In this document: in pieces, positions 1,860-64,000 of the stretch
Layout of the letters: the number at the start of each line of letters is the position of its first letter
Position numbering within the stretch: the stretch's first letter is position 1
DNA from: Chloranthus sessilifolius
Lineage: Eukaryota; Streptophyta; Magnoliopsida; Chloranthales; Chloranthaceae
DNA: 64,000 nt
Direction of reading: 5' to 3'
Assembly (NCBI GenBank): GCA_021018995.1
Contig: CM037589.1
Span: 62,592,568-62,656,567, forward strand
Position numbers and translations under genes: made by a program
The notes under the pieces: model-generated
Told to the model about the DNA's origin: nothing
Database searches by the model: none
The model's input: the letters and a program-made list of their open reading frames with translations, nothing else

Positions 1860-4800
1860 ACCACAAAACTTGCACTCAAATGGTACCTCCATCTCTTTCC
1901 TACAATGTCGTACACGTCAAAATTCTTCCTCACTCTACCTCTCAAGTGATGATGTTAATTCTAGACATTACCACAATTTCTCACATTCAAGTCTAAGGTT
2001 GATTGACTAAAGGTCTTTTTCCTAGATGTCTATAGTATGGATCTAATAGTAATATTTTCTTTCTTTTCCATGGTTCATTTGCATACATCTGAATTATTTC
2101 AGTTGTCCTCACATCAGGTTCAATTCCCCTCATAGTTGTGCCAAAACCATGATTTCCTTCTCTCAGATTTCTGTGCAGCAAATATTTCGCAAAGAGGACA
2201 TATTCATCTCTTTCACAAACCTCCGCAACTGTCACATTTTTGTTAATTGCCAAGTTGGAAATCATCTTATATCGCATTACCAAGACTTCCTTCCCACACC
2301 AATGGTCCTACCAGAATCTTACTCTATGCACTAAACCAATTATGAATATAATGTTCTGCTTGAATCAATTTTTTTATTTTTTGCACACTTCCACCATCCC
2401 AGTCTTAGTCTACCTCTTGGCTCTCTAATGCTCTACTGTAAGTTATCCTCAATATTTTACTGCACATAGAATCTCCTTTGTCACCAGACCACCATAGTCA
2501 TTTCCCTAACAAGGCCTTATTCATTGTCTAAAGGGATTGTATTCCGAGGCCACTGAAGTTAGTCTGGAATTACCCATCTCAATTGATCACATGGATTTTT
2601 TCTTTGACCTTTCTCTCGCTTCACAAAAAATTAAATTGTATATTCTATAATCTCTTCATAAATATACCATGACAAACATTTACTTGAAGTAGACTGGGAG
2701 ATTAGATAAAGTTGCCTGATAGCCTAATTCTTTATCCTTTCAAAAGTAGGACCCCCTTCCATTCAGCCAACTTTTGATTAAATCATCCAATCACAGGGTC
2801 CTAGTGGGTCACGTTTGTCTTTCTGATCCATAACAAAAGCCCCAAATATACGGATGGGAGTCTACCTTACCCAAACCCCATTATTCCTACCATATCCACT
2901 GACATAACGTCTTCCATCCTAACACCAAACATCATTGTCTTCCTTAAGTACAACCTTAACATTTCTAAGCCATGCTCACTTCACATCCATGTATAAGGCC
3001 TACTTTAGAAGCTTTGTTCATCAGCTTACACAACACTTCAGTAACGATGTCAAATAAAAAGGGAGAGAGGATCACCTTGAGGCATACCTTCGGAGCTTCT
3101 AAAGAATCCCTTCACAGCTCCATTTATCATCACAGATGAGATGCATCCCCTTATTCATTTCCTCCACTTTTTAGTAAGTTCAAATCTCCGCAACATGTAA
3201 TCGAAAAACTTCCAATCTAAAGAGAATTAGGTCGTTGAGATGCATCATGTTATCCATTTTCTCTACAGTCATAAGCTTTCTCAATGTCAAGTTTACAGAG
3301 CAACCCAGGCGTCCCATCCTTTAATATGGAGTCGATAACTTCGCGAGTTAACACAGCACCATCCACGATTTGACGTCCATCAACAAATTCGTGTTGATAT
3401 GGAGATATAATTGATGACATTCCTGGTCTAAGCCGATTCACTAGGACCTTGACCAATATCTTATACAAACTCCTCAACAGAATTATTGGTCTAAAGTCCT
3501 CATTTTTTGCCTCATTTTTCATTGGTATGATTGTTACGAACATCGTCTTTGTCTTTCACATAAAACTCGGCGAAGACCTCCATAAACTTGTCCCTCAACA
3601 GTTCCCTAAATTGCTTATAGAACTCCAACGTAAATCCGTCTGGACCTGGTGTTAGATCGCCGCTTGGCTTGAAAATAGCCTTAATGCACTTTCTCCTCAA
3701 AACTTAACACTTTCTTCTCTCGGTCCTCTATTCGGATCGGAACAATCTTAATTCCATCAATCACCAGTTGATTCCAACCATCATTGGTATATACTTTCTT
3801 GTCAAATTCCTCCTCATGGTCATCTTAATTCCTTTCTATCCTTGATTGTCCAACTATTATTTGTTGAATAGTGTTTATCCAAAATCGTGCATTTGCCATG
3901 CAATAGAAAAACTTTTTAATTCCTCCTCCGTTTAACCATCTAACCGGTGATCTGTCGCCATATGATTTCTTCTTTTACCTTTTTCTTGTATTTTTCCTTT
4001 GTCATCACCTTTCACTCTCATCTCTCGATAATAGGCCTTCCTCTTTTAGATCTAGCATCTAGATGAGTATCAACAATTCAACATATTCATCATTATCTCC
4101 TAGATATTTTCGAATTCATCCTTACTCCAACTCCCCAATGGTCGACGATCCCCTTCTTGCCCCATCACCTAAAGAGCCCTGCACCAGAGCCATCAGAGAC
4201 AGCTTGTGGCTTTCCATGAAGACACCAGTTCAACTTCTGTTTCCACCACCAACACAAATCAATCACCACCAGAGGAAGAGGTGGATGACCCTCGGGATTT
4301 GTTCAAAGGATGAGGCTCCAACACTCTTCTCAATGAGCTTCTTGGAAGTTCAAACTACATGGATCCACCTTAAGTGGACACAAACATCCCCAATTGCCTT
4401 AAACAGTCATCCACCCCATAACTGCCAAGGAATTTCAAAAACTTTTATCCAGGATCCCGTCTTAAATGCAGTAGGGGAGTTAATGGCCGACCTCCATTTG
4501 TCGAACCAAATCAAGCCAGGCCTAACAGGCCACGCCCCACAGGAGACAACCCTTCTCACGAGTGCCACTGTAGAAGACGAACGTAAAGTTTCCTGGCCCA
4601 AAGGCTATATTGCTCCACACATTTACATTGGTGTCGAGGTCAGGGTCCGAATGAACTCCAACCAAACATTTCCCCCTGAGACAGTGCTGCCACCTAGCAT
4701 CATTATCATCTTCATCCCAGTCAACAGACCTTTTTTTCCAGCTCTGTTGGCAGAAGCTTCCTCCATGGTTGGTGCTTTTTGGTGAAGCTCCTATATTTTT

Positions 4801-22500: not shown

Positions 22501-25500
22501 TTATGGCAAAAGTGATGAAGGCTTGCTTCTCAACTTCAGTCTTCTCAATCGACATTAGCAATTTTGCAAACACGTTATTCAAAAGTTTGAGGGGATTGAG
22601 ACAAGGTGATCCATTATCTCCCTTCCTTTTAAAATATGTTAGTAAGGACTTGAGCCAACTCATTGATCGGGGTGTACATATTGGAATGTTACAGGACTTC
22701 AAGGTGACAAATGATATTACACCAATCTCCCATCTACAATTTACCAAGGACACTCTTATTTTTGTAATGTCTCGAGAAATGATCTCTTTCATTTGAAATT
22801 TATAATAAGGAGCTACGAATTAGTCTCAGGACAAAAGATCAAAGTGGAAAAATCAAAGCTTCTTGAAGTTTAGGCGGAGATCAATAGACTACAAATCTTG
22901 ACGGACTACTTTGATTGTCGTGTTAATCTTATCTCGGCCTACTCCTTTGTATGCGCAAACCACCAAAGGTGAAATGGACGCCTGTCATTCAAAGAATGGA
23001 AAGAAAAATATAGATGTGAAGGGCAAGATGCTTTCCACCAATTGTAGAGTAACCCTTATAACCTCCTGCTCTATTACCTATCTCTATTCTGGAGCCCAAT
23101 GGAGATTGTAAATAGATTTAACAATTTAATGCGGACTTTTTATGGTGGCAATGATGAGGGAAACAAACTACATCTAATCACATTAATTATGACGGTATTC
23201 ACTTTGTGAAGTATGGCAGGCTTGGTATTCGGGAAAAAAAAATGAACAAGGCTCTTCTAGAGAAGAGGTTTTGGCACAACGGTCACAATCATGAAGTGTC
23301 GTGGTATAAGATAATTTCAGCCAAGTATAAAACCTCCAAATGATTATGGCACACTCGAAATACAGGGAAAGTCTATCTACTGGCAAGGTTGTCAAATAAG
23401 GTAGGCAGGGGGCCTAGGGGGTGGACCTCCCTAGTGCCTAGGCGGAGCATAGGCGGCAAGGGAAAAAAAAAATTAATTTGTATTTATTTGTAGTAAAATA
23501 TCCATATAAAGTGTAGAATAAAACTAAAATAAAATTGATAATTATGTCATTACCAACTACCAACACACTACTAAGTACCAAGTAAGGTGGCAATAGCTAA
23601 CATGTAATAACATGTTGACAAACTGACGAAGTAAAAATCATCCAACCAAACCAACAACATTCAAGTAAAACTCAACATATTAAAAGTAAAATTCAAATAG
23701 AAACTAATATTATTTAACTTTGATGTGTCAGTCGACCGGTCACAATATCTCTCTACCGCTTGCACTGCTGGACAGATTTTCTATGGAGTAGAGAGGCGAG
23801 AGAAGGGGCTCCGATCTCTTAGGATTTGCAAAATGTGATTGGGGCACTTAGCCCTTTCTTGTTTACATGTAAACATGTGACTCTATTCATTATAAAACTT
23901 ACTTACACATAATAAGTATATACGTTTTATGTTTTTAATTATTTCTGAAAAAATTAAAATTAAAGAAAAATGAGTTTTATTGAAAAAGTTCCCGCTTTTG
24001 AGGCTTTTAGGCCTAGGTGGCTGCTTCAAAAACCAAAGCGAACGCTTTTGGTAGGCTCACTATAAGCAGGTGGCACCTAGGTGCCCTAAGCGCCTATGCG
24101 GTAGGCACCGCATTTGACAGCAGCGTCTAGTGGAAAGGTATTCACTCACAACTACTCTCGTCAGCAATGCATTCGCCACTGCTACAAGAATGGTAAAGTG
24201 TCATAAAGTTTGATTTTGAAAAGATAAATGGCTAGGGGCAGGATGGGTTATACTGTAATATAAGGAGGTTGATTCGTTTGCTAATTTTCTTATAGCTCTC
24301 CCTTCTGATTTGTGGAACCATCATCGAGAAGACAATACATTTCAGAACGAGAGTCAAAATTGTAACTCCTGTCAGATCATACAATAACTACCTGACTATA
24401 AGGCCCCTTTTCACTCCGGCTTTGACAGGACTTTGAAAAATCAGCGGCCCTCATAAGGTGTTGATCTTCACTTGGCATGTGGCTTGGGGGAAGACCAATA
24501 AATCAACAATCTTAAAAGAAGGGGTATGTTGATACCAAGCAAATGTGACGTGTAGTGGGGTAGCCAAATGGGTAAATCATTGGCTCTTACATTGCTCAAT
24601 AGCAACTGCTCTATGGGTTCACTTTCAACAGTGCCGACAAGGATGCTTACCTACCCAGTGAAAAGAATCTTTATCTAAGACTGTCCCCAAATCAATGGGC
24701 CATTATATACTTGGTGTGCTCAGTATTCTTCTTATTCCAATCTTGTGGTCTCTTTAAATGAAAGAAACAGGAGAATTATGGAAAGAAAAAGGAACATGAT
24801 GCGGGACGCCAAGATCAAGAGCCGTAGATTCGAGCCGCAACAGATTTTCCAGCCAAGAGGAAGTGGAGCGAAAACCAAAACTAAGCGTAAAGAAGGGAAT
24901 TCTAGAGAAGGGATCGAACATAAGGCAAATTCGATTGATCGAATTTAAATTTTGATCGATCGAAGTTCTGCTTTGATCGAGCTTCGATCGATCAAATGTC
25001 GACGGTGAAATTTCATATATGAATGTCGATCGATCGAAATTGTGCCGAGTTAGTTTAAATTTTTATATTTCGAATTTAAGTTTTAAGGACTTATTTGTCT
25101 TTTACTTAATATTCGTTTTAGGGTTTCTTTTATTGTAAGACCTCCTATATAAGGTCTTTAAACAATGTAATTGAGGAGTTTTTTTATTCAATGAAAAGAG
25201 AGTTGCTTTTGTGCAAACCTTAAAAAGCTTGTGAAGAGTTTTCAATCGAGGGAGTGAATCGTTCAAACCTTGAGGAGTGAGCAATCATTTCTCGTACGAC
25301 TTAGTGCGAAGCCGACTTACAGCCGTGGTGTGAAGCTTCGGAAAAACCCTTGGTGTGAAGTCTTGGAATCTATCTTTTTAGTTTGTCTTTTCTCTAGTTG
25401 TCAGGTATTATTTTTCTTTCTTTCCATTGATAAAAGAACAAAAATCCCAAAAGAATAGTATTCCATGATATCATTAATCTCCCCTTTTTTAAGCTATTTA

Positions 25501-28500
25501 TTCAAGTTTCATCTCCTTCAAAATCCCCGAGGAATCAAATCCGATATTTCAGTTATCGCTTGATGCCCTAAACTAGAACGAATTCCGAGTTCCTTCATCG
25601 GAGCCGTTTTTCTAGATCGGGAATTTTCACGCATTCAGACGCTAAAACGGATTAATCTAATTGTTTTTATTAATTTCATTGAATTACTTTTATGTGTTAC
25701 TTGATTTTGGATATTTCCGCTATTCAAATCATTCTAAAGTTAATCCCAAATTCGCATATTAGGATTTTAGCGTTTGTAGTGCGTCAGTTTTGGTATCAGA
25801 GCACAGTTTTAGTTTTGGGTTGTCCGTGTTCACTTGATTTTAGTATATTGTCTTGCATAATTCCGTCATGGATACCAGTACCTTAGAGGCCCTGATTAGA
25901 GATCTTGCATCCAAGGTGACCACTAGTCAAACCCGGATGGATGAGTACATTGCTGATCAACAAGCCCGACATGAGGCTTTAGAGACTCGTTTCGAAGAGA
26001 TCAATGAGCTCATCGCTGAGAATCACAATAGAGTCAACAACCGTGACCGTAGGAGAAATGTTCCTCCCCGACGTGAGGTCCAAACCAATATGGACGATAA
26101 GGTCATGAAATCTGTGAAAATAGACGTCCCTACTTTTGACGAAAAAAGACAACCCAAGGTCTTTCTCGAATGGGTCGCCAGCATGGAAAACTACTTTGAG
26201 TGGTATGTCATGCCCGAAGACCGCAAGGTCAGATTTGCCAAAGTCAAGCTTATGGGTCAAGCCAGACTTTATTGGTTGGGAGTGGACCGTCGTAGGCAAA
26301 TCCAGGGTCTTCATACTATTTTCACGTGGGCTGAAATGAAAGTCCAACTGCACGAAAAATACGTTCCCGTATCATATGATGAACGTATTCTTGATCAGTG
26401 GCAGTCATTGCATCAAGGAGACTCCCCAGTCACAGAGTACATCGATCGGTTTGAAGACCTGATGACCCAGGCCGATGTCGATGAACCAGCAAAAGTTACT
26501 CTCTCCCGATTCCGAATGGGTCTTCGCTCAGAGTTACAAAGGGAACTCATTCCTTATCCCGTGAGGGATCTCGAGGAATGTTTTGCTAGGGTTGAAGAAT
26601 TAGCACGGTTTCTCGACACCCCCAGTGATGGCCAATCTAAGTCTTCCAAATTTGAGCCTCAATCTAACCCTATCGTAAAGGGAAATAATGCCTTTAGTCA
26701 ATCCGCAAAATCCATAAGTCCCCAAGTTGACAAAGGAAAGGGACCAATGGTCGAGAGTTCTAAGCGTGCCCCGCAACAATATTATAAGTGTCAAGGTTTT
26801 GGTCACTTTGCATCCCAATGTCCTAGTAAGGGTCAAACTTTGATCATTCAGGATCATACTGAGAAAGAGAGCAACGAGATACCCGAAGAAGTGTACGAAC
26901 CATGTAGCACTCCAAGTGATGACAAAGGTGAGGTTCCGGTCCGAGCCATAGGTTGCATTAGGACAATTCCCATTGCCGAGGACGGTGTTGATAATGTGTC
27001 CATCTCAAGTGAGTCATTAGAGTTGGTAGGATCACATCATCATTCTGATTTGCATGGGATTAACAATATGAATTTATTGAACATTGGAAATACACATGAT
27101 CGGACTAACACGTTGAATATATTTAATGAATTTGATACTAACAGTTTTGTGTTAATTCCTTATGGTTCTAAGCATGTGAAATCTTTCTCAATCTCGGAAA
27201 GAGGTAAGGGTGAAGGTCTAAATCTTCTTCAAGACAAGGGCAATCATCCGGTAGTTGTCATAACGGATCTTACATATATTCTTGATCCCACTACCCCGCC
27301 CTTTGATCCATTCCTTCTTGAGCATCCAATCGAACCACCCTCATTGTCCCATTTTCTATCCCATATCATACCTGTGCAACATGAGAAAAGGTCGAATGAA
27401 AAGGGTATAGAATGTCAATGGAGGTAAATATCATGAGTATCTCACGGCGTGGAAAGGTAAGTCACGAATGAAGCTTCCGGAGTGTGCCATCCATGGATTC
27501 CCTAACTCATCGGAGATGAGTTTTTCCCACCCGGGGAGATTGATGCGGGACGCCAAGATCAAGAGTCGTAGATTCGAGCCGCAACAGATTTTCCTCCAAG
27601 CGTAAAGACAGGAATTCTGGAGAAGGGATCGAACATAAGGCAAATTCAATCGATCGAATTTAAATTTCGATCGATCGAAAGAAATTTCATATATGAATTT
27701 CGATCGATCAATTTTCACATTCAATCGATCGAAATTGCGCCGAGTTAGTTTAAATTTTTCTATTTCGAATTTAAGTTTTAGGGACTTATTTGTCTTTTAT
27801 TTAATATTCGTTTTAGGGTTTCTTTTATTGTAAGACCTCCTATATAAGGTCTTTAAACAATGTAATTGAGGAGTTTTTTTATTGAATGAAAAGAGAGTTG
27901 CTTTTGTGCAAACCTTAGAGAGCTTGTGAAGAATTTTCAATTGAGGGAGTGAATCCTTCAAACCTTGAGGAGTGAGCAATCGTTTCTCGTGCAACTTGTA
28001 TGAAGCCGACGTACAGCCGTGGTGTGAAGCTTCGAAAAAATCCTTGGTGTGAAGCCTTGGAATCTATCTTTTTAGTTTGTCTTTTCTCTAGTTGTCAGGT
28101 ATTATTTTTCTTTCTTTCCATTGATAAAAGAACAAAAATCTCAAAAGAATCGTATTCCATGATATCATTAATCTCCCTTTTTTTGAATTATTTATTCAAG
28201 TTTCATCTCCTTCAAAATCTCCGAAGAATCAAATCCGATATTGCAGTTATCGCTTGATGCCCTAAACTAGAACGAATTCCGAGTTCCTTCATCGAAGCCG
28301 TTTTTCTAGATCAGAAATTTTCACACATTCAGACGCTAAAACGGATTAATCTAATTGTTTTTGTTAATTTCATTGAATTACGTGATTTTGGATATTTCCG
28401 CTATTCAAATCATTCTAAAGTTAATCCCAAATTCGCATATTAGGATTTTAGCGTTTGTACTGCGTCAGAACACAATTCAAGAAGTAATACGATACTAGAA

Positions 28501-29634: not shown

Positions 29635-30729
29635 TTAATAGAGCTGATTAATTCAATTGCATCCCACCAACTACACTAGTTTGGTTTTTAGATTATAGAG
29701 CCATGAATCCAATTCTAACAAAATCTTACATTATAAAAAAGAGGAAATGCTTAATAGAAGCAAGGAAAGGAATTCATGGTAAGAGAAAGAGAATCAATCA
29801 ACTTACGGAGCCATCCAACGGTATGTTCCAGTCTCTGGGGTCATCCCCTCAGTTTGCACCTCAATCCTTGCCACTCCAAAGTCAGCAATTTTTATTGTTT
29901 TATCCCCACAAATCAACAAATTATCTGACTTCAAGTCTCTATGAATAAATCCTAGACCATGAACGTAGGCCATCCCCCTGGCAACATCCAATGCCTGTTT
30001 CACTGCCAATTTCAAAGGAACCGAGCGATTCTGCCTTCTCGTCAAGAACTGCCGAACCGAACCCCCCTTTGCATACTCAGTAACGATACACCAAACCATT
30101 GGTTTTCGGCATGCCCCGATGAACCTAACCACATTGGGGTGCTTCAGAGTTGCCAACATCATTACTTCCTGTGCAAACTGCTGTTCCATCAACTGCGCTC
30201 TCTCGGGATTATTTTCAGGCCTCTCCAGTATCTTAATGGCAACATCCTCACCATTATAAGTACCCTTATAGAGCTTTCCGAAAGCACCCTGGGCGAAAGC
30301 CATCCCCATGTTAAGATTCCTTAAATCAATTGTCCACTCGTCGTAATTCTCGAGACCTTCAGTGGGAAATCTGTTATCCATAAGGGCATGGGCGAGGGCA
30401 TCATCATTTAGGGCATGTGAGACCTTGCCGGGACGGAGGATGCTGTGGACCACAGAGTAGCTGCCGTCGTTGGTGATTGTGCGGTGACCAGCACCGCCGA
30501 TGCCACCGTGCTGGTTTGGGGGGATGAGGTAACGAGAATCATTTGATCCAACGCTGCTGTTCTCGACAGACATAGATACGGAGCCACCAGCGTTGCTTGT
30601 CTGGACGCTGTCAATAGACATGTTGGAACCCTCGCCGAGTTTCTGGTAAAACCCCTGGGTGAAATCGTAGAAGTTGTTCTCATTGTTGTTATTACCTATG
30701 ATTCCCGTGAACTTGGGTCCCTCTATCAT
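10171..30729 (-). CDS. STY13: Raf-like Ser/Thr protein kinase, STY13-like (two exons)
   Basis: Two exons, 29807-30729 and 10171-10510, join at a clean GTAAGT...TTGGCAG intron to give 420 residues, close to the roughly 411 of Arabidopsis STY13 (At2g24360). The N-terminal 135 residues are low-complexity and family-like (start [12 protein letters not shown], then [14 protein letters not shown]). The kinase domain follows: Gly loop AQGAFG near 146-151, VAIK Lys166, helix C Glu188, HRDLKSDN with Asp265, DFG Asp283, GTYRWMAPE at 301-309. The end is [11 protein letters not shown]. All catalytic residues are present. The family is a cytosolic plant Raf-like (C-group MAPKKK-like) dual-specificity kinase with reported activity on chloroplast-precursor transit peptides in some STY members. 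The start is the only Met before the conserved N-terminus. No break is seen. Confidence 0.95.
12250..13800. other. Intronic stretch, nothing recognised
   Basis: Short repeated phrases occur (GTGGGCTGGCCCCGAA near 12347 and GTGGGCTGGTCCCGAA near 12457), but there are no terminal repeats and no coding potential. The remainder is AT-rich single-copy-looking sequence. Confidence 0.35.
14230..14450. mobile_element. Family Q MITE, partial
   Basis: Carries the right-hand half of the family Q order: a CATGATCTCGAGATCCATTG block near 14343, AAAATTGGGACAAAAAATGA and GATCACCATCGTTTGATTC near 14384. The left end is not clear. It resembles 9197-9608 and 16749-17140. Confidence 0.5.
14791..15234. mobile_element. 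Mutator-type fold-back MITE with 9-bp target duplication
   Basis: Flanked by the 9-bp direct repeat AATAATTAA (14782-14790 and 15235-15243). The ends start GGGACAAACTCCCATAGTCC and, from the right, GGGATAATGGTTCCTGACCG. After a small offset the arms pair over a long stretch (CCAAATGGTGTTTAAACGAT against CCGAATGGTGTTTAAATGAT). Nine-base duplications with GGG ends fit a MULE-derived MITE. No coding capacity. Confidence 0.75.
15442..15846. mobile_element. Mutator-type fold-back MITE with 9-bp target duplication
   Basis: A 405-bp element bounded by the exact 9-bp repeat CTTATTAAA (15433-15441, 15847-15855). The termini are GGGAGCAAGTACTTGCACAC and, from the right, GGGAGCAACTACTTGCACAC. The arms then pair almost to the centre (CCATCTAAGCCATCTGATTT against CCATCTAAGCCGTCTGATTT). 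Transcripts would fold into a long hairpin. MITEs inside 19626-20854 share the inner arm. Confidence 0.85.
16137..16543. mobile_element. hAT-like non-autonomous element, CGATACG family
   Basis: Exact 8-bp target duplication GAGGATAC (16129-16136, 16544-16551). The ends are CTAAGAAGCACGGACAC and, from the right, CAAGGAAGTACAGACAC. Subterminal GATACGGGTAC / GTACCGATACGGATAC motifs cluster near both ends. The 8-bp duplication and the short imperfect inverted ends fit the hAT superfamily. No transposase. Confidence 0.8.
16749..17140. mobile_element. Family Q MITE
   Basis: The ends are GGGTACTTCTGTTCGCGCC and, from the right, GGGTACCTCTATTCGCACC, with arms pairing inwards (AGACGGTCATTTTTTGATTC against AGACGGTCAATTTTTATTCC). 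No exact target duplication was found. It is the best-preserved member of the four family Q copies. Confidence 0.7.
17141..19020. other. Unclassified repeat-like block
   Basis: It opens with CCTTTATATAGGCTTCTAC, an LTR-like TATA context, and 17380-17560 resembles plant LTR leader sequence. No LTR ends, primer site or domains can be fixed. On the minus strand open stretches at 18376-18651 and 18608-18880 read, for example, [19 protein letters not shown]; the family is not recognised. They directly precede the LINE endonuclease start at 19090 but are in the opposite orientation. Confidence 0.35.
19330..19425 (-). mobile_element. tRNA-derived SINE
   Basis: On the minus strand it reads TAGCACAATGTAAGGTTG (A-box-like) and, about 35 bases on, GGTTCGAATCC, an exact consensus B box, followed by CAGCTTAACTAT and a run of eight A. 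These are the internal RNA polymerase III promoter and tail of a SINE. It sits within the LINE, so it inserted later. Confidence 0.7.
20021..20165. repeat. 69-bp tandem repeat, about 2-3 units
   Basis: TCTCGTGCCCTAAAATCTG recurs at 20021 and 20090, and a diverged start TCTCTTGCAC follows at 20159, giving a 69-bp period. It lies inside the hAT-like element. The GTAAGT next to the first unit (CTGTAAGTAC) resembles a splice donor, so the unit could be a captured 5' UTR/exon end; this is a guess. Confidence 0.65.
20168..20346. mobile_element. Nested fold-back MITE
   Basis: The left arm CACCATCTAAGCCACACGAT and the right arm, reverse complemented, CACCATGTAAGCCATATGAT pair for about 35 bp. The same arm appears at 20443-20680 and in the MITE at 15442-15846. 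It is inserted within the hAT-like element, making it the third nesting level (LINE, hAT, MITE). Confidence 0.55.
20440..20680. mobile_element. Second nested MITE copy of the same family
   Basis: GCATCTAAGCCATACGGTTG at about 20432-20451 and the inverted GCTTAGATGGC at 20661-20671 mark the arms. The interior holds a GAAATCAGTCATCATCTGAT palindrome and a GTCTTAGATGGTGTTCCAAG block like that at 15747. Ends are approximate. Confidence 0.45.
23388..24120. mobile_element. Non-autonomous element with GCCTAGGCG subterminal repeats
   Basis: The ends are GTTGTCAAATAAGGTAGGC and, from the right, CTGTCAAATGCGGTGCCTAC, inverted repeats with changes. Both termini are dense in CCTAGG/CGCCTA motifs (for example GGGCCTAGGG near 23409 and GGCACCTAGGTGCC near 24072). 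The candidate 8-bp target duplication is imperfect. The design resembles the hAT-like elements in this window. It interrupts the 3' part of the LINE. Confidence 0.6.
24540..24745 (+). repeat. Possible SINE or LINE-tail repeat
   Basis: GGGGTAGCCAAATGGGTAAA (24559) looks A-box-like and GGGTTCACTTTC (24616) is a weak B-box match. The end, CTTGTGGTCTCTTTAAATG, recurs at 28691, so the tract could equally be part of the LINE 3' region. Confidence 0.35.
24797..25786 (+). repeat. 5' LTR of copy 1
   Basis: 990 bp, TG...CA. The upstream part carries a cluster of TCGATCGATCGA-type palindromes (24938-25045). The TATA box TATATAA is at 25146-25152 in the context CTCCTATATAAGGTC. Downstream blocks with GGTGTGAAGC repeats (near 25329 and 25352) recur in all related LTRs here. 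Confidence 0.9.
25868..27427 (+). CDS. Gag protein of gag-only LTR element, copy 1
   Basis: About 519 residues from [17 protein letters not shown]. The order is an N-terminal coiled segment (about 1-60), the retrotransposon gag/capsid region (about 85-240, with [14 protein letters not shown] and [14 protein letters not shown]), a linker, and a zinc-knuckle-like [13 protein letters not shown] near 315-330. A roughly 190-residue tail follows, with acidic and Ser-rich stretches and [16 protein letters not shown]. That tail takes the place where protease and pol would begin and is conserved in the other two copies. Gag packages the element RNA into virus-like particles. An upstream in-frame ATG at 25853 is the alternative start. 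The frame is long and mostly open; this is a mobile-element gene, not a host gene. Confidence 0.85.
   Translation: MDTSTLEALIRDLASKVTTSQTRMDEYIADQQARHEALETRFEEINELIAENHNRVNNRDRRRNVPPRREVQTNMDDKVMKSVKIDVPTFDEKRQPKVFLEWVASMENYFEWYVMPEDRKVRFAKVKLMGQARLYWLGVDRRRQIQGLHTIFTWAEMKVQLHEKYVPVSYDERILDQWQSLHQGDSPVTEYIDRFEDLMTQADVDEPAKVTLSRFRMGLRSELQRELIPYPVRDLEECFARVEELARFLDTPSDGQSKSSKFEPQSNPIVKGNNAFSQSAKSISPQVDKGKGPMVESSKRAPQQYYKCQGFGHFASQCPSKGQTLIIQDHTEKESNEIPEEVYEPCSTPSDDKGEVPVRAIGCIRTIPIAEDGVDNVSISSESLELVGSHHHSDLHGINNMNLLNIGNTHDRTNTLNIFNEFDTNSFVLIPYGSKHVKSFSISERGKGEGLNLLQDKGNHPVVVITDLTYILDPTTPPFDPFLLEHPIEPPSLSHFLSHIIPVQHEKRSNEKGIECQWR
27541..28467 (+). repeat. 3' LTR of copy 1
   Basis: 927 bp, same ends as the 5' LTR and somewhat shorter in the palindrome-rich part. 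The TATA box is at about 27841-27847. The TCGATCGATCGA cluster is at 27648-27735. Confidence 0.9.
28473..29030 (+). repeat. LINE 3' end in tandem copies
   Basis: GATACTAGAAGGCTCATT occurs at 28491 and 28768, a period near 277 bp, followed each time by CAAAGCAATTCGCAGAC and a CAACATCCAGGTG block. A third partial copy (CTTGTGGTCTCTTTAAATG) lies before the LTR element at 24743. The last unit ends near an A-run at about 29023-29034, a plausible poly(A) tail. Confidence 0.6.
29031..29800. other. STY13-like intron, proximal part
   Basis: Nothing codes. A TA run followed by a GA run lies at about 29594-29633. The plus-strand ORF at 29703-29948 overlaps the kinase exon in antisense and is rejected. 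Confidence 0.5.
29807..30729 (-). CDS. STY13: STY13-like kinase, exon 1
   Basis: Codes for residues 1-307 and the first two bases of Pro308. The exon ends at GCTCC with donor GTAAGT. It carries the whole N-lobe, catalytic loop and DFG, and about three-quarters of the protein. Confidence 0.95.
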
Positions 30730-32600: not shown

Positions 32601-35600
32601 TTTCTGATTATTCAACTTTTTATTTTCGAAGATAGTATTCAAAGGGGTCCACTCCGTACTCCCTCCACCCACTTTTAATGGTGGTGCTGGTAGTAGCCTC
32701 CTCCCACCCAATACCCAATTTTAATGGTGGTGCTGGCAGTAGCCTCCTCCCACCCAATACCCAATTTTAATGGTGGTGCTGAAAGTAGCCTCCTCCCACC
32801 CAATACCCAATTTTAATGGTGGTGCTGGTAGTAGCCTCCTCCCACCCAATGCCCTACTTTAATGGTGGTGCTGGTAGTAGCCTCCCTACCCCCCAACTAA
32901 ATCTGCTCTTTCCTTATTGTGAAAAGCAGCAATAGCATGGATGCACTTAGATTTCTTAGTATTCACTCACAACTCAACTGAGTTAGCTCTCCTCGCCTAA
33001 GTGCCTAACCAACAATATCACTTTCTTTATTTCAAAATATGCAGCTCCATCTCCTACCAAACAAAAAACACCTACTGCTTCCCACATCCACAATTCACCA
33101 ACTTGTGCTACCAACTCCCAAGGACGTCAAAAGCTTCCGCCAAATCACTCGATATAACACTAATCTCAACATTCATTTCACCTATAATGAGATGAAATTG
33201 GCAACCAACAACTTTCGGCCAGATCAAATTATCGGTGAGGGAGGTTTTGGAATCGTCTATAAAGGAGTTATAGATGAGAATGTCAGGCCAGGCTTCAATT
33301 CCACTCAAGTTGCCGTTAAGGAGCTCAATACAGAAGGCTTCCAGGGTGACAGGGAATGGCTGGTGCTTCTCTTTTTTAATCTCTATTGTTTAAATACTAT
33401 TTCCTTCTTACTTTCTTAGATTGTGAACAACTTGCATCTGTGGTGGTGACTGGTGATAGATGATAATAATGGATTTCTTCTTCTTCTTTTTTTCTCTTGT
33501 TAAATTTTTTTTTTTTTTATATCTATGATTTTATGGAAGTGAGATGTTCAGACATGTCCAATTAAGATAGTTTCAGATTTGCACTGTCTTTTCACACAAG
33601 GTTAAGGCTGTGTTTTACCTCTTTAGAGCGGCTCTTTCACTCTTTGGCACCATCGGAGAACTGCTTTTACGTTTGGTAACTCAGCTCCTCGCCTAATTTG
33701 TTCTGACAGGAAGCTGTTGTAAGTGATAAAATCTGCTCTGGGAGAGAGCTGCTTCTGTTCTTATAAGAGCTAACCCAAACACAACCTAAACACCTTCAGC
33801 AACCTTGGCATTTCTTCATCTTTTGTGACCAATTACCAACTACCTGAGTTTCAAATCCAGACATATCTAACCAAGATTGGAAATTTCGGTATTGAAGTCC
33901 ATGTTGTTTGGATTTGATATCGATAAGTAGTCTTGGTATCATTCTATATGGTTTGAATTGGAGGATACAGTCACTACAGTGTGAAAAAAGCCCACATCTC
34001 TTTGCATCATATTCAATGCAACTGGATTCAGGGTAGTGTTAGGTTGTGATACAGAGACTTATTAATATATAGGTCTCCATATCTATTTCCAAATTTCAAT
34101 ACATGTCTTTGGCCAAATCATTTCTCTCGTAAAAAGGATTAGAATGTAAAGATAAATGGGACTGTTTTGGACCAAGATATTTGAAACTTCAATTTGTCAT
34201 AAGGTAGTTTGATCTAATATCTATGTTGATGAACATTGGTGAGCAAGAAAAGATGTAGAACTGAATTTATGTTATATTACACATTGCTCGGAGAGTAGGT
34301 AGTGATAGGATGGATAACTGTGAAGTGCGAACTAACATTCAAACATGAAACACTGAAAGGAGGAAAAGCACACCTCAGTTTTTCTTCTGATATTAATGCC
34401 TTTAAGGGGGTGCACTTGAACTATATGAGAATCTTAATATTTAAAAATCAAAGCATAAGCACCTCTAGATCCACAGCTGACTGTAAAACATTATGGAATA
34501 TTATACAATCCTTCCATCTCCATGCATACACACAAAGAAGGTCAAATCCTTTTATAAAGAGTTTGGTGACTTTTTCTTCCAATACTACTTGTTGGCAAGT
34601 GTAATAGCATAGAAACTACTCCTACAACTACAATTTACAAATTTAGAAAATCAGACAATATGTTTTGTACAATTCGTTTTATCGCATGGATTGCATCTGA
34701 TCCCATTACCAAGGCTTGAAGGATGTAATACCTGTGTGTATGAATTGGAATAGGCAGGAATAGAATATGTGAACCAGACAACACTTTGATTAATACATTT
34801 TCAAACCACCAGAGAGGGTTGTGACTGTGAGAGAACTGGGATTATATGGCACCCAGTTTCCATAAATTTAAATTCCAGACTAATTAGTAAGAAATAAACT
34901 GTTGTATGGAAAGCTATAGTTACATGAAGCGAAACAGTTCTGAGGAAGTAGATGCAGGAGCGGATGGGAAAACTGCGAAAAGTTTAAGATATGTCTTTAT
35001 AGTCGACTTAAAAAGGTAACTTATATACTAATCGTGTTAATGAAATCTTACATTCTTTTAAAAGTATTATTTAAAAGAAAAAAACTATAAATAATACAAT
35101 CCAGATTGTGTTCAAGGTGGATTTGATGGAGTCATGGCAGCAGGATCCAGTGAATAAGTGTGTTTGACATAATGCTTTGACGTTGTAGAAACTGTAAGGT
35201 GCGTACTCATCATCTTTTGGCTTTTGCAGGCAGAGGTGAACTATCTCGGGCAGCTTGGGCATCCAAATCTAGTCAAACTCATCGGCTACTGCTGTGAAAA
35301 TGAGCACAGGCTGTTGGTATATGAATATATGGCTTGTGGGAGCCTGGAAAGGCACCTTTTCCGATGTAAGTATCCGAAGCTATGTGACTGGAAAAAATGA
35401 ACGTGTCTCAATGTACATAGTATCATAGTAAACACATACAGTATTCATTTAGTGGCGCAACCCTGGATTATTCAACCTGCCAACACACCCTTACATGGTA
35501 ATATTGACAAACACTTATCATTTCATACAAGTGTTTGATGGGAATGTTAAAGCACTATAAATCCTACGAATGAAACAGAGAAACAAGGAGGAAAAATATA

Positions 35601-54800: not shown

Positions 54801-57800
54801 TCTTTCAGGATGCTTGGGATGTTGTTCATAATTCGGACATGTTTTCCTAACAGCTAAAGGAGCCCTTTTCTTTATTGATCGGTTTGGATTGACACTTACT
54901 GCAGAGAGAGAATCAACTTTCTTAAGAGAGAGAGCTTTCCACCCACCATCACTAGCACTAGTAAAATCAGCATAGTCACCACCACAGAAATTTTCTGTCA
55001 CGAGCGCCAGATAAACTTAGATGAGAGAAGCATGGAAACACTATCTTTACAGGAAGCATCAACTTAGCAAGTGAGGGGAGGAAACTGGAATGCATACAAA
55101 TACTAGAAATGAAGCACCAGGGATGATTAACGCATATAGTTATACGTTAATACGTAACGCAGTACAAACACTAAAATCCTAATATGCGAATTTGGGATTA
55201 ACTTTTAAAATGATTTGAATAGCGGAAATATCCAAAATTAAGCAACACATAAAATTAATTCAATGAAATTAATAAAAACAATTAGATTAATCCAATCTAG
55301 CGTCTGCATGCGTGAAAATTTTTCCGATCTAGAAAAACAGCTCCGATGAAGGAACTCAGAATCCGTTCTAGTTTAGGGCATCAAGCGATAATTGCGATAT
55401 CGGATTTGATTCCTCGGGGATTTGAAGGAGATGAAACTTGAATAAATAGTTCAAAAGGGGAAGCTTGATGACATCATGGAATACGATTCTTTTAGGATTT
55501 TTTTGTTCTTTTATCAATGGAAAAAGAAAATTAATACTTGATAACTAGAGAAGAGACAAAATAAAAGGATAGATCCCAAGGCTTCACACCAAGGGTTTTC
55601 CGAAGCTTCACACCACGGCTGTACGTCGGCTTCGCACCAAGCCGCACGAGAAACGATTGCTCACTCCTCAAGGTTTGAAGGATTCACTCCCTCGATTGAA
55701 AACTTTTCACAAGCTCTCTAGGGTTTGCACAAAAGCAACTCTCTTTTCATTCATCAAAAAAACTCCTTAATTACATTGTTTAAAGACCTTATATAGGAGG
55801 TCTTACAATAAAAGAAAACCCTAAAACAAATATTAAATAAAAGACAAATAAACCCCTAAAGTTTAAAGTTTGAAATTAGAAATTTAAAACAACTAAAACT
55901 CTTCGGCGCGACTTTGATCGATCGAAATTGAAATTCGTTCGATCGAAATTGAAAATCGATTGAACGAAATTCATACATATAAAATTTCGTCGTCGACATT
56001 CGATCGATCGATTTAGGACTTCGTTCGATCGAATTTGCCATGTGTTCAATCCATTCTCCAGAATTTTCGCCTAGTTCTGGTTTTCGCTCCACTTCTTCTT
56101 GGCTGAAAATTTTGTTGCGGCTCGAAACTACGGCTCTTGCTCTTTGCGTCCTACATCAATCTCCCCGGGTGGGAAAAACTCATCTCCAATGAGTTAGGGA
56201 ATCCATGGATGACACACTCCGGAAGCTTCATTCGTGGCTTACCTTTCCACGCTGTGAGGTACTCATGATGTTTACCTCCCTTGGCATAGAAGCTTGGAAA
56301 TTCTATAACCTCCTCATCCGACCTTTTCTCATGTTGCACAGGTATGGTACGGGATAGAAAATGGGACAATGAGGGTGGTTCGACTGGATGCTCAAGAAGG
56401 AATGGATCACAGGGCGGGGTAGTGGGATCAAGAATAAGTGTAAGATCCGCTATGACAACTACCGGATGATTGCCCTTGCGTAGAAGAAGATCTAGACCTT
56501 CACCCTTACCTCTTCCCGAGATTGGGAAAGATTTCACATGCTCAGAACCATCAGGAATTAACACAAAACTGTTAGTATTAAATTCATTAAATAGATTCAA
56601 TGTGTTAGTCCGATCATGTGTATTTCCAATGCTCAATAAATTCAAATTGTTAATCCCATGCAAATCAGAATGATGATGTGATCCTACCAACTCTAATGAC
56701 TCACTTGAGATGGACACATTATCAAGACCGCCCTCGGCAATGGGAATTCTCCTAATGCAACCTATGGCTCTGACCGGAACCTCACCTTCGTCATCACTTG
56801 GAGTGCTACATGGTTCGTACACTTCTTCAAGTATCGCGTTGCTCTCTTTCTCAGTATGATCCTGAATGATCAAAGTTTGACCCTTACTAGGACATTGGGA
56901 TGCAAAGTGACCAAAACCTTGACACTTATAATATTGCTGCGGGGCACGCTTAGAACTCTCGACCATGGGTCCCTTTCTTTTGTCAACTTGGGGAATTATA
57001 GATTTTGAGGATTGACTAAAGGCATTATTTCCCTTTTCGATAGGGTTAGATTGAGGCTCAAATTTGGAAGACTTAGATCGGCCATGACTGGGGGTGTCGA
57101 GATACCGTTTTAATTCTTCGGCCCTAGCAAAACATTCCTCAAGATCCGCAACGAGATAAGGAATGAGTTCCCTTTGTAACTCTAGGCGAAGACCCATTCG
57201 AAATCGGGAGAGGGCAACTTTTGCTGGTTCATCGACATCGGCCTGGGTCAATAGGTCTTCAAACCGATCGATGTACTCTGTGACTGAGGAGTCTCCTTGA
57301 TGCAATGATTGCCACTGATCAAGAATACGTTCATCATATGATACAGGAACGTATTTTTCGTACAGTTGGACTTTCATTTCAGCCCACGTGGAAATAGCAC
57401 GAAGACCCTGGATTTGCCTACGACGCTCCACTCCCAACCAATAAAATTTGGCTTGACCCATAAGCTTGACTTTGGCAAATCTGACCTTGCGGTCTTCGGA
57501 CATGGCATACCACTCAAAGTAATTTTCCATGCTAGCAACCCATTCAAGAAAGACCTTAGGTTGTCTTTTCTCGTCAAAAGTAGGGTTGTCCATTTTCACA
57601 AATTTCATGACCTTATCGTCCATATTGGTTTGGACCTCACGTCGGGGAGGAACATCTCTCCTACGGTCACGGTTGTTGACTCTATTGTGATTCTCAGCGA
57701 TGAGCTCATTGATCTCTTCGAAACGAGTCTCTAAAGCCTCATGTCAGGCTTGTTGATCAGTGATGTGCTCATCCATCCGGGTTTGACTAGCGGTCACCTT

Positions 57801-60800
57801 AGATGCAAGATCTCTAATCAGGGCCTCTAAGGTACTGGTATCCATGACAGAATTATGCAAAACAATATACTAAAATCAAGTGAACCCCAAAATCTATATG
57901 ACGCGAACAACCCTAAACTAAAACTGTGCTCTGATACCAAAACTGACGCAGTACAAACGCTAAAATCCTAATATGCGAATATGGGATTAACTTTAGAATG
58001 ATTTGAATAGCGGAAATATCCAAAATCAAGCAACACATAAAAGTAATTCAATGAAATTAATAAAAACAATTAGATTAATCCGTTTTAAAGTCTGAATGCG
58101 TGAAAATTCCCGATCTAGAAAAACGACTCCGATGAAGGAACTCAGAATTCGTTCTAGTTTAGGGCATCAAGCGATAACTGAAATATCGGATTTGATTCCT
58201 CGAGAATTTTGAAGGAGATGAAACTTGAATAAATAGTTCAAAAAAAGGGAGATTAATGATATCATGGAATACGATTCTTTTGGGGCTTTTGTTCTTTTAT
58301 CAATGGAAAAAGAAAATTAATACCTGATAACTAGAGAAAAGACAAAATAAAAGGATAGATCCCAAGGCTTCACACCAAGGGTTTTCCGAAGCTTCACACC
58401 ATGGCTGTATGTCGGCTTCGCACCAAGTCGCACGAGAAACGATTGCTCACTCCTCAAGGTTTGAAGGATTCACTTCCTCGATTGAAAACTTTTAACAAGC
58501 TCTCTAGGGTTTGCACAAAAGCACCTCTCTTTTCATTCATCAAAAAAACTCCTTAATTACATTGTTTAAAGACCTTATATAGGAGGTCTTACAATAAAAG
58601 AAAACCCTAAAATAAATATTAAATAAAAGACAAATAAACCCCTAAAGTTTAAAGTTCGAAATTAGAAAAACAACTAAAACTCTTTGGCGCGATTTCGATC
58701 GATCGAAATTGAAATTCGTTCGATCAAAATTGAAAATCTCCTCGATTGAAAACTTTTAACAAGCTCTCTAGGGTTTGCACAAAAGCACCTCTCTTTTCAT
58801 TCATCAAAAAAACTCCTTAATTACATTGTTTAAAGACCTTATATAGGAGGTCTTACAATAAAAGAAAACCCTAAAATAAATATTAAATAAAAGACAAATA
58901 AACCCCTAAAATTTAAAGTTCGAAATTAGAAAAACAACTAAAACTCTTTGGCGCGATTTCGATCGATCGAAATTGAAATTCGTTCGATCAAAATTGAAAA
59001 TCAATCGAACGAAATTCATACATATAAAATTTCGCCGTCGACATTCGATCGATCGATTTAGGACTTCGTTGGATCGATCAAAATTTAAATTCGATCGATC
59101 GAATTTGCCATGTGTTCAATCCATTCTCCAGAATTTTCGCCTTTACGCCTAGTTCTGGTTTTCGCTCCACTTCTTCTTGGCTGGAAAATTTATTGCGGCT
59201 CGAAACTACGGTTCTTGCTCTTGGCGTCCCACATCAATAAAACTTTCACAGTTAGCTTCAGGATGGAGATTCCACTTTACATGGACAAAGATAGGTGAGA
59301 AATTGCTACTGTGACTTTAATTTCAATAGTACAGAAAAAATATAGGATTAATGGCCATTTCTTGGTGTGATGGTAAAAGCCGTGGGCTGTCTTTAAAGCA
59401 TGAAAGGTAGGTTCAAGTCAAGAGAGCACCACTTTGTGCGCAAGAAAAAAGCTAGAGGTTAGCTCCGTACTCCATCCACCACTCCCAGCACCCCATACAT
59501 ATGGAACCAGCACGGGTAATGACCTTTTTAGAAGAAAAGAATATAGGCTTAATTTCATATATTCTCTATTAAGTATTAACTTCATCTTCATTGTCTGCAT
59601 CCACTTTACATGGACACAGATATGTGATTATTTTGTAGTGCCTTTTAATTCAGTAATATAGAAAAAAACATAGGAGAACTTTCATATTTTCTTCATCAAT
59701 TTCATCAGACACTTAACTCATTATGTCTAGAGTCTAGCCATTGCATAATTGCTCTACCCATGGCATACTGAACATGGATCAAAATATTGTCCAATACCAA
59801 TATGTATTGTCCGATACGTATCGGTTTTGAACCTCACCAATATGTATTGTCCGATACAGTACATTCAAGGTACCGTATCGGTGCCTCCCATTTAAAATAG
59901 AAAAATACCGGACAATACATACCAATGGATCGTCCGGAATCGATACGTATCGATTGTGGAGCTGGATGATACGTACCGATTTTCTGAATTTTTGGCCCAT
60001 GATACTGAAATAATAACATGGCTGAGACAAACCAAACAAATAGCAAATATAAGCACTTTTACATGCAGGCTGTCTAATCAATAGGCCATAACCCAGAAAC
60101 TTCCTTCACACATTGATCGTAGTTTGCTTATTCATGAATTTAAGAAGCTTTTTTGTTTCTTTTTTAACACACTCAAACATGGATAAGCATACAAAGAGCA
60201 TACAAAGAGAATAACAACCACTTTTACGTAAAGTCTGTCTAACCTAGTCACGCATAAACCATTGTCTTTCCTGACAAGTTTCCTTAGCCCAAGATGAACT
60301 TCCTGCATGTGAGCTTAAGAGCCCATTTTGTCATTTTTGGCAAAGCAAAATTATAAGTAAATTCAACCCCAAGCCAGTATACAAACTAAAGTCCAGTTAA
60401 ATTGTTGAAAGTAATGCATATTGGGATAAGCAAGAACCAAATGCCATGCAAAGTAATTAATAGATATGAGAGAGGTATTAAGAACGGTTCCGCGTTTTCA
60501 CAACATTTTGAGTATCATGCATTGTTGGTATTTTCACAATGAGACACCAAACCTTTTGTGAAGGACTCAGCTTCTGAGGGTTCAGGGGAATCAGAGCATG
60601 GAAGACTTCTCCAATACTGTAGAGCCAGTGTGACTGAATCCCTCACTGGTTTCACCTATTAAAAACAATTTCACTTGCATTTAAAAAATAAAAAATTAAT
60701 TAAATTGCCTCATCAGAAGCAAAAGTCATAAACGGTACTAACCTTGTCAAAGCGACATAATTCAAGGGAACAGATGCAGGAAGTCTTCAAAGACCCCAGC

Positions 60801-62395: not shown

Positions 62396-64000
62396 TGATG
62401 CGGGAAAAACGCTAAAACCCTAATTAATGCGAGTTGGGATTAACTTCAGATTAAATTGAATAGCGGAAATATTCGAAATCACCCAAACACATAAAATAAT
62501 CCAATAGGTTTAATTAAAACAAGTAGGTTAACACAATTTTAGCGCTCACATGCATCGAAATTTCCCGATCTAGAAAAACGGCTTCGATGGAAGAACCCGA
62601 TCTTCGATCTAGTTTAGGGCACCAACCGACAATTACGGTATTAAGGGTTTGGGGTTTTGATTGTATCAAAGGAAATAAGGGTAAATATTACCTAACAATA
62701 ATTAAAGAAAAGACAGAATAGGAAAATAGGGTTCCAAGGGTTCCAAGGCTTCTCACCAAGGCTGTATGTCGGCTTCGCACCAAGTCGTACGAGAAATGAA
62801 GATTCACTCTTCGATTTTTGAAAGATTCACTCTTTCGGTTGAAAACTTTTCACAAGTCTTCTAGGGTTTGCACAACAGCAAGCTCTCCATTTCATTCATT
62901 AAATCAACTATCAGTGTTTTTTTTACAATGCTTACAAGGACCTTAATAGTAGGCCTCAAAAGAAGAAACCCTAAAACAATAAAACACTAAAAGGGTAAGT
63001 TTGACCCAAAAAAAAAAAAATCGTCTTTTGGTGGGCCTAACTTACGCGGCCAATCGATCAATCGATTTATAAATAATAAAATCGCTCGAAGTCTCTGCTC
63101 ACAATCGATCGATCAATCCTAGATAATCAATCAATCGACTGAGAAGAATAAGTTGACAAAAGCTCACAAGCCACTGTCCTCAATTGATCGATCGAATATC
63201 TGAAATCAATCGATCGACTAAAGCACGCATCAATTCTTCACTTGAATCGGATGTCCCTATCAGTTATGGTTCCCTTTCTGTTCTTCCGACGCTTGAAAAT
63301 CTGTTGTAGCCCCATTTCAATGCTCTCGATCTTGATGTCCCTATCAATTCTCCCTGGGTGGGAGAACTCTTCTCTGATGAGTTGTAGAACTCACGTAGTA
63401 TGATACACCTTGGGTACTCAACTCCCGGTTTGCCTTTCCATGTTGTGAGATATCCATGACACTTGCCCGCATTGGTAGTGACATTTGGAAACTCCAAAGG
63501 CAATTCATTCAACTTTTTCTCATATTGTACGGGTTATGAATTGGTTAAATGGGCTTGGTTCGATTGCATTGGCAACAAGGAATGGGTCAAAGGACATAGT
63601 TGCAAGACCTAGAATAGGTGTAAGATCTTATACCGCAATTATTGGATGATTACCCTTGTCTAGAGGAAAATCTAGACTCCCATCATTACCTCTTTTCAAG
63701 ATCGAAAAAGGCTTCATATGCTCGAAACTATCGTGAATTACCACAAAATTGTCATTATTAAACTCAGTAAACAAATTCATTGTGTTAGTGGCATTCTGTG
63801 TATTTTCATCATTTAATAAAATCTTATCGTTAACCCCATGCAAATTAGAATGCTGGCACGTTCCTACCGACTCTAACAACTCATGCGATATGGACACACT
63901 ACCACCACTTTCTTCGGGAATAGAAACCTTCCTAACACAACCTACGGTTTTCACAATAATTTCATCCTCCTCGTCACTTGGCATTTCAATAGGTTTGTGC
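62396..64000 (-). mobile_element. Gag-only LTR element relative, copy 3 (runs off the window)
   Basis: The 3' LTR is 62396-63346 (TGATGCGGG...CCTATCA on the plus strand), followed by gag sequence on the minus strand up to the window end. Its Gag tail (63628-63984, SVSISHELLESVG, KGNHPIIAV) matches the tails of copies 1 and 2 but is much more diverged, and several breaks are present. It is the oldest of the three. TCGATCGATCGA-type sites lie at 63045-63200. Sense to the TOR1-like gene. Confidence 0.8.
63347..64000 (-). pseudogene. Gag tail of copy 3, partial
   Basis: Two readable stretches (63264-63512 and 63628-63984) correspond to the C-terminal Gag tail and the HGYLTTWKGKPGVEYPRC segment before the polypurine tract. 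The capsid part would lie beyond the window. A few breaks; fossil. Confidence 0.7.

Follow-up and report, generated by a model that had tools for sequence, protein, structure and literature searches.

Plant LTR retrotransposons that carry gag without pol are known as TR-GAG elements, reportedly from the work of Chaparro et al. in 2015. The passages on them in three papers describe LTRs and gag only, with no pol (PMC5818461, PMC6022998, PMC8704663), and a copia-type member from Arabidopsis is reported to transpose (PMC8704663). In the wheat system outlined in part of another paper, RLG_Sabrina and RLG_WHAM are high-copy Gag contributors that have no reverse transcriptase (RT) or integrase and belong to a network in which RLG_Wilma is the likely autonomous partner (PMC9744471). 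RLG_Quinta of the Triticeae and oat, partnered by RLG_Cereba, is presented in the sections on this element as encoding Gag and a following domain of unknown function but no RT or integrase, its gag having passed from one lineage to another (DNA identity of about 65% within gag and more than 90% around it) (PMC11302176).

The window analysed here, a stretch of 64,000 nt from contig CM037589.1 of the 2.17-Gb Chloranthus sessilifolius genome (GCA_021018995.1), contains members of a large family of gag-only elements, which belongs to a known kind of plant element, TR-GAG. It shares LTRs and gag without pol with TR-GAG elements but has a long tail after the zinc knuckle, of which the TR-GAG descriptions in those passages make no mention (PMC5818461, PMC6022998, PMC8704663). 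The Arabidopsis element differs in being copia-type (PMC8704663). The Chloranthus elements, of putative Ty3/gypsy origin, have no RT; at E<1e-3, their capsid shows 24-30% identity to five of the eight gypsy-type regions read that lie before RVP_2 matches. It resembles RLG_Sabrina and RLG_WHAM in being high-copy with Gag but no RT or integrase, whereas the semi-autonomous form of Sabrina, as characterized in that part of the source, has Gag plus protease (PMC9744471), and no protease was recognised by Pfam search in the Chloranthus pieces searched. The design is closest to that of RLG_Quinta of wheat, in that an additional in-frame region comes after Gag and gag is exchanged between lineages. 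According to the same sections, RLG_Quinta is centromere-specific with an identified partner, in contrast to the Chloranthus family (PMC11302176), whose scored matches lie mostly in outer chromosome parts and for which no partner was found among the top-ranked matches read. The family offers a parallel to the Quinta/Cereba system that is large, not centromere-bound and likewise swaps gag modules among gag-only elements.

Anatomy of the window copies

Two of the copies, 1 and 2, are LTR retrotransposons in which gag and an in-frame tail fill the LTR-to-LTR interior of about 1.75 kb. Copy 1 (24797-28467, plus strand) lies between the two halves of a perfect 5-bp target duplication (gaaca; 24792-24796 on one side, 28468-28472 on the other) and has the following parts:

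24797..25786, plus strand: 5' LTR, TG...CA, with TATATAAGG near 25146 (sequence and self-comparison)
25791..25802, plus strand: primer-binding site TGGTATCAGAGC (sequence), which we take to be of the initiator-Met type
25868..26116, plus strand: N-terminal part of Gag
26117..26620, plus strand: Gag capsid, Retrotrans_gag PF03732, under purifying selection
26741..26884, plus strand: Gag zinc-knuckle region, without the first Cys
26885..26974, plus strand: first 30 codons of the tail, with some residue constraint (amino acid changes 0.83 of expectation)
26975..27427, plus strand: tail proper, open frame with little or no residue constraint
27530..27540, plus strand: purine-rich tract preceding the 3' LTR (sequence)
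27541..28467, plus strand: 3' LTR

The gag of copy 1 runs without a stop from the ATG at 25868 to 27427. The capsid matches Pfam Retrotrans_gag at E 1.2e-15, demonstrating the presence of a Gag domain, and the knuckle, at 20.1 bits, falls short of the 20.8 cut-off; the first knuckle cysteine, absent from both copies 1 and 2, is present in 23 of 27 other rows.

Copies 2 and 3 are on the minus strand:

57944..59236, minus strand: copy 2 5' LTR with a 264-base tandem duplication (self-comparison)
57939-57928, minus strand: copy 2 primer site
56151..57623, minus strand: copy 2 Gag frame, starting just upstream of the capsid, spanning the tail and ending a few bases inside the 3' LTR
55155..56158, minus strand: copy 2 3' LTR, with terminus TA
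63628..63984, minus strand: copy 3 tail, of diverged group B
62396..63346, minus strand: copy 3 3' LTR

In copy 2 an exact target duplication was looked for and not found, and the N-terminal part of gag is interrupted by a stop, after which a frame of 490 codons is open up to a stop codon at bases 6-8 of the 3' LTR. The window ends within copy 3 and holds only its 3' LTR and part of its tail. The tails of copies 1 and 2 share 85-86% of their amino acids, those of copies 3 and 2 share 49%. The first-pass annotation had given about 1.75-1.8 kb between the LTRs of copies 1 and 2, all used by gag, and had placed the same tail next to the LTR of copy 3; the measured intervals are 1753 and 1785 bases.

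Copies across the genome and the space for pol

The count of three copies was correct for the window and understated the family genome-wide, since a first look gave 2343 candidates with capsid DNA, 3624 with the tail and 2883 with the copy 3 tail, mostly unscored, the best 40, 150 and 150 of which were scored. Capsid, knuckle and tail follow in that order in all 20 tail loci read, with 205-287 bases from capsid end to tail start and only a partial capsid match in L016 and L027. The LTRs of these loci lie 1.73-1.94 kb apart in 12 and 2.17-2.81 kb apart in five, while no LTR pair was found in three. At 2.81 kb or less, the LTRs of all 17 bracketed loci are too close to hold gag plus pol, leaving no space for RT, RNase H or integrase in these loci, most candidates in the genome being unscored. 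The longest open frame at scored tail or extension matches is 656 aa (150 matches in each of three scored sets); the search with the 48-residue extension gave no frame above 633 aa among 150 scored matches, 119 of which reach the LTR without a stop. Among the 40 group B capsid-DNA matches, 18 are followed by a scored tail match at a distance of 295-497 bases, and 14 of the other 22 were read, revealing a tail in 11, a fragment in one and none in two (661 bases read). The earlier proposal of a gag-only lineage with diverged subfamilies and a shared tail, comparable to TR-GAG elements, is borne out.

The copies might alternatively be dead remnants, derived by internal deletion from an ordinary full-length gypsy family and with no life of their own, in line with an element 3' end that, we assume, resembles chromovirus-type ends. 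This is very improbable, given thousands of first-look candidates (mostly unscored) and diverged subfamilies with one layout, purifying selection on the capsid between subfamilies and space for gag plus pol in none of the 17 bracketed loci.

Residue constraint and the open frame of the tail

Purifying selection is clear on capsid and knuckle, and the tail beyond its first ~30 codons shows little residue constraint. Between groups A and B, divergence at the three codon positions is.345/.228/.591 in the capsid and.227/.186/.401 in the knuckle, a wobble excess that is missing from the tail (.323/.256/.307). Fixed differences are distributed 26/14/40 over codon positions in the capsid and 18/16/16 in the whole tail, and the odds of the two regions differ (z 3.66). 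Amino acid changes between groups amount to 0.755 of chance in the capsid and 0.97-0.99 in the tail beyond ~30 codons, compared with 0.83 of expectation in the first 30. They are conservative in the capsid (BLOSUM z 5.61) and not in the tail (0.25; 19 rows, L016 omitted from the test), with a tail z of 0.10 in 11 capsid-picked copies. Decay after insertion dilutes a signal in the tail more than one in the capsid, because the tail has a short inner branch (about 0.15 changes per site, compared with 0.6 in the capsid; trees, 29 rows).

Weak residue constraint on the tail is possible, as indicated by small deficits in group B and by a dN/dS that stays under 1 in the majority of tail windows. A shuffle test within group B gave 0.83-0.99 of the expected changes, a small deficit in nine of nine comparisons, and divergence at codon positions there is.187/.154/.214, with wobble marginally highest. 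By a simple codon count, tail dN/dS is 0.34-0.68 within group B and, between groups, 0.32-0.77 in five of six windows and 1.33 in the last. Together with a tail common to the loci read, its open frame, 26 invariant columns of 177 (11 rows) and an amino acid identity of 44-52% when copy 1 is compared with rows of group B, these values would suit a protein domain kept by purifying selection for a role in cross-mobilisation. That reading is nonetheless rather unlikely, since changes between groups are at chance level and not conservative, fixed differences are spread evenly over codon positions, the best Pfam and PDB matches (E 0.096 and E 0.68) were both judged chance, and an AlphaFold2 model from an input of only three sequences has a mean pLDDT of 39.8. 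That Pfam match, to SH3_Tf2-1 over 16 residues in one of 11 members, was the only one, and an integrase or chromodomain remnant in the tail was rejected.

What is clearly kept in the tail is its open frame. Its frame has 4- to 7-fold fewer stops than expected, even among copies chosen by their capsid DNA, and the other frames are not depleted. In 189 pairs, which are not independent owing to shared history and the decay of each copy after insertion, 116 new tail-frame stops were observed against 813 expected, compared with 1301 against 1109 in frame +1 and 1610 against 1212 in frame +2. As the first choice of group B rested on matches to the tail protein, a criterion that favours loci with few stops, the test was redone on 14 of the 22 capsid-DNA matches without a scored tail match, with the tailless L051 and L058 dropped and the fragment L060 in the totals. 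These 12 copies have 13 tail-frame stops against 57.5 expected (8 against 48 without L060), and 82 against 66.6 and 98 against 71.6 in the other frames. Between regions, 12 stops fall in the tail and 50 in the capsid of the 20 tail-picked group B loci, and 3 and 6 in seven capsid-picked group A copies. Single copies carry frameshifts, with 1-5 indels per tail, nearly all frameshifting. The first-pass annotation had suggested selection on the tail for a role in cross-mobilisation and a comparison of its constraint with that of the capsid; such selection is only partly borne out, the frame being kept open, and for the residues it is not supported, the small deficits within group B and the simple codon counts aside.

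In positions 26975-27154, stops are depleted in frame +1 (64 against 352 expected), although that frame is not depleted over the whole tail.

Selection for an open frame and selection for a protein sequence, two things usually taken as one, seem to come apart in this tail; if this is confirmed, the purpose of Gag tails in gag-only elements is open to a simple test. Perhaps the reading frame and not the protein sequence is the selected trait, e.g. through RNA shielding or as a residue-tolerant spacer, an idea that we hold only tentatively. RNAs with long 3' untranslated regions are degraded in plants; under RNA shielding, an early stop would create such a region and make the genomic RNA a target of nonsense-mediated decay, with amino acids mattering little. 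This would explain stop depletion and weak residue constraint together and would fit a frame continuing into the LTR, as well as tail indels that are scarcer than LTR indels, the tail having about 2 indels per 528 bases (20 group B loci) and, in three pairs, 0-2 gap runs, the LTR 19-20 gap runs in about 890 columns. It is somewhat doubtful, however, as the LTR part upstream of the transcription start already makes a long 3' untranslated region, LTR simple repeats may raise the LTR indels, and the tail indels nearly all shift the frame.

A cis-acting RNA element, e.g. a packaging signal, open by accident, would accord with a tail-plus-LTR backbone common to elements with different gag modules. 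We regard it as improbable: tail divergence in three pairs (0.39-0.44) is close to that of the LTR (0.44-0.46), predicted folding is no better than in shuffles (z +1.47, one sequence), the tail has no Rfam match, and the frame-specific stop depletion is left unexplained.

Module exchange and the search for a partner

In the gag tree, L020 and L021 group with nine group A rows (support 100/100), and in the tail tree they fall within group B (100/99; 29 rows). This strongly supported conflict shows that gag modules were recombined while tail and LTR form a common backbone. The simplest mechanism would be template switching when RNAs are co-packaged.

A gag-only family using pol in trans, with gag exchange and a tail serving as tolerant spacer or filler, is probably the best joint explanation of these data. 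The element would make its own Gag, a Ty3/gypsy partner's Pol would reverse transcribe and integrate it in trans, and different gag modules would be traded between elements by recombination. From its frame, the tail would be translated as a C-terminal extension of Gag up to the 3' LTR, selection acting against stops and not against most residue changes, as expected for a residue-tolerant spacer or filler.

A full-length gypsy partner with matching LTR ends and primer site, which the first-pass annotation had suggested looking for, did not emerge. Only top-ranked matches were read, and the Pfam searches with RT_RNaseH_2, RVP_2 and Retrotrans_gag seemed dominated by other gypsy lineages, under lineage labels that we presume. 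The 18 regions read near gypsy-type matches (10 and 8) held no partner sharing the family's LTR ends, primer site and purine tract, and the 10 upstream regions gave no match to capsid or tail with an E value below 0.2. The gypsy RT end motif was not seen in a scan, run with no positive control, of the window and 38 loci, of which the L029-L038 regions end before RT. Because no mobilising partner was found, cross-mobilisation is inferred.

The scored matches lie mostly in outer chromosome parts, with 38 of 126 and 43 of 135 in the outer 20%; on this scale of relative positions, on which centromeres are not mapped, no centromere-specific insertion was seen, the median relative positions being 0.35 and 0.29, compared with 0.70 for the top Retrotrans_gag matches.

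Structure of the elements and their copies in the genome

Copy 1, the first of three LTR elements in the window, is a clean insertion flanked by a perfect 5-bp target duplication, with a primer site 4 bases inside the 5' LTR end, a purine-rich tract ahead of the 3' LTR and a single gag frame which takes up most of the 1.75 kb inter-LTR region.

24797-25786 and 27541-28467, + strand: LTRs of copy 1
25868-27427, + strand: gag frame of copy 1

Copy 2, on the opposite strand, has the same layout, plus an N-terminal stop and a duplicated stretch in the 5' LTR. Past this stop the frame continues through the tail, the in-frame Gag extension after the zinc knuckle, and its stop codon is provided by bases 6-8 of the 3' LTR. 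The duplicated stretch (58475-59002, - strand) is an exact 264-base tandem duplication with a TATA-like motif in each half. Copy 3 runs out of the window inside its tail. The LTR pairs diverge by 0.072 in copy 1, 0.059 in copy 2 and 0.068-0.111 in six loci of group B, which comprises the loci with a copy-3-like tail, group A being copies 1 and 2 and their kin. The window also holds two protein-kinase-like frames and a TORTIFOLIA1 C-terminal-like frame (29806-30729, -; 33039-33416, +; 52096-52821, -), indicating that host genes of the plant, whole or as fragments, are present.

Genome searches returned 2343 to 3624 first-look candidates, the best 40 or best 150 of which were scored. The order capsid, knuckle, tail was found in all 20 group B loci (the capsid of L016 and L027 being matched only in part), the tail starting 205-287 bases after the capsid ends. 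The inter-LTR distance was 1.73-1.94 kb in 12 of these loci and 2.17-2.81 kb in five, which carried inserts or partial LTR matches; no LTR pair was found in the other three. The longest open frame at any scored tail or extension match (three sets, best 150 each) was 656 aa. Among 40 group B capsid-DNA matches, 18 were followed, at a distance of 295-497 bases, by a scored tail match; 14 of the remaining 22 were read for the tail, revealing a tail in 11, a fragment in one and no tail within 661 bases in two. Several matches recur at a spacing of 2.66-2.80 kb or about 4.7 kb, which suggests head-to-tail tandem arrays of elements with shared LTRs.

Genome G000, C6: matches at 27553696, 27558391, 27567733, 27572419, 27577099
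Genome G000, C8: matches at 134768717, 134771518
Genome G000, C2: matches at 1294328, 1296984
Genome G000, C3: matches at 1640416, 1643206

Exchange of gag modules

Along the gene there is a break in identity near 26570-26670. Loci L020 and L021 share 71-85% identity with copy 1 before the break and 61-80% beyond it, while the pattern is reversed against locus L010 (45-72% before, 75-88% beyond). Correspondingly, both loci group with group A in the gag tree (29 rows, 100/100) and fall within group B in the tail tree (29 rows, 100/99). The identity break and the conflicting trees demonstrate that the elements have a tail-plus-LTR backbone in common and swap gag modules. The branch between the groups measures about 0.6 changes per site for gag and about 0.15 for the tail. 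L016, L027 and L028 have long branches and an unsure placement in the gag tree; their N-terminal gag parts differ from those of other rows and are possibly further modules or inserts.

TR-GAG elements by definition carry gag but no pol (PMC6022998, PMC5818461); one of them reportedly transposes in Arabidopsis (PMC8704663). The closest design is RLG_Quinta of wheat, in which gag is accompanied by an unknown domain and swapped among lineages, with mobilisation by RLG_Cereba (PMC11302176); the Chloranthus family differs from it in chromosomal location and in having no identified partner. Text searches of the open-licence literature, in the portions accessible, gave no account of this Gag tail. 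Scored tail matches lie mostly in outer chromosome parts, with a median relative position, calculated for contigs of known length, of 0.35 (126 of 150 placed) and 0.29 (135 of 150 placed) in two sets, compared with 0.70 for the top Retrotrans_gag matches (132 of 150 placed).

An open tail frame with little residue constraint

Group A, here copies 1 and 2 with seven others chosen by capsid DNA, was set against 21 rows of group B (copy 3 has no capsid inside the window). Differences at the three codon positions were.345/.228/.591 for the capsid; the knuckle gave.227/.186/.401, and both show the pattern of a selected protein. The tail gave.323/.256/.307. Fixed differences, counted at columns at least 80% uniform within each group, numbered 26/14/40 for the capsid (odds ratio 4.67) and 18/16/16 for the tail (odds ratio 0.98), a contrast with z 3.66. 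When observed changes were shuffled among bases of the same kind to give the amino-acid changes expected without selection, the observed/expected ratio was 0.755 for the capsid, 0.733 for the knuckle, 0.83 for tail codons 1-30 and, further along the tail, 1.03 and 0.98. Capsid changes were strongly conservative (BLOSUM z 5.61), whereas tail changes were not (z 0.25 with 19 group B rows, 0.10 with 11 capsid-picked copies). Counter to this between-group result, a simple codon count, which ignores the transition excess that the shuffle test allows for, put the between-group dN/dS of the tail at 0.32-0.77 in all but the last of six windows, which reached 1.33. Within group B this count gave 0.34-0.68, the wobble position differs slightly more often than the other two (.187/.154/.214), and the shuffle test gave 0.83-0.99 in all nine comparisons. 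Residue constraint on the tail is therefore read as little, but not zero.

The tail carries 116 new stops in its own frame against 813 expected, compared with 1301 against 1109 and 1610 against 1212 in the two other frames. Tail matches had been the original basis for choosing group B, and the 20 loci bear 12 tail stops versus 50 capsid stops, a sign of this sampling bias; the seven capsid-picked group A copies bear 3 versus 6. The test was therefore rerun on capsid-DNA-picked copies absent from the scored tail matches, giving 13 in-frame tail stops against 57.5 expected (8 against 48 without fragment L060); the two other frames had 82 where 66.6 were expected and 98 where 71.6 were expected. 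In three between-group pairs, the tail has 0-2 gap runs per 528 columns, versus 19-20 per about 890 in the LTR. In a second alignment, the tails of the 20 group B loci carry 1-5 indels apiece, about 2 on average, and almost all of these shift the frame; one frameshifting indel is present in every row and is thus probably copy 1's own change. Single copies decay, yet the open tail frame is common to both groups. At 26975-27154, stops in frame +1 are also depleted between the groups (64 against 352 expected), without amino-acid constraint.
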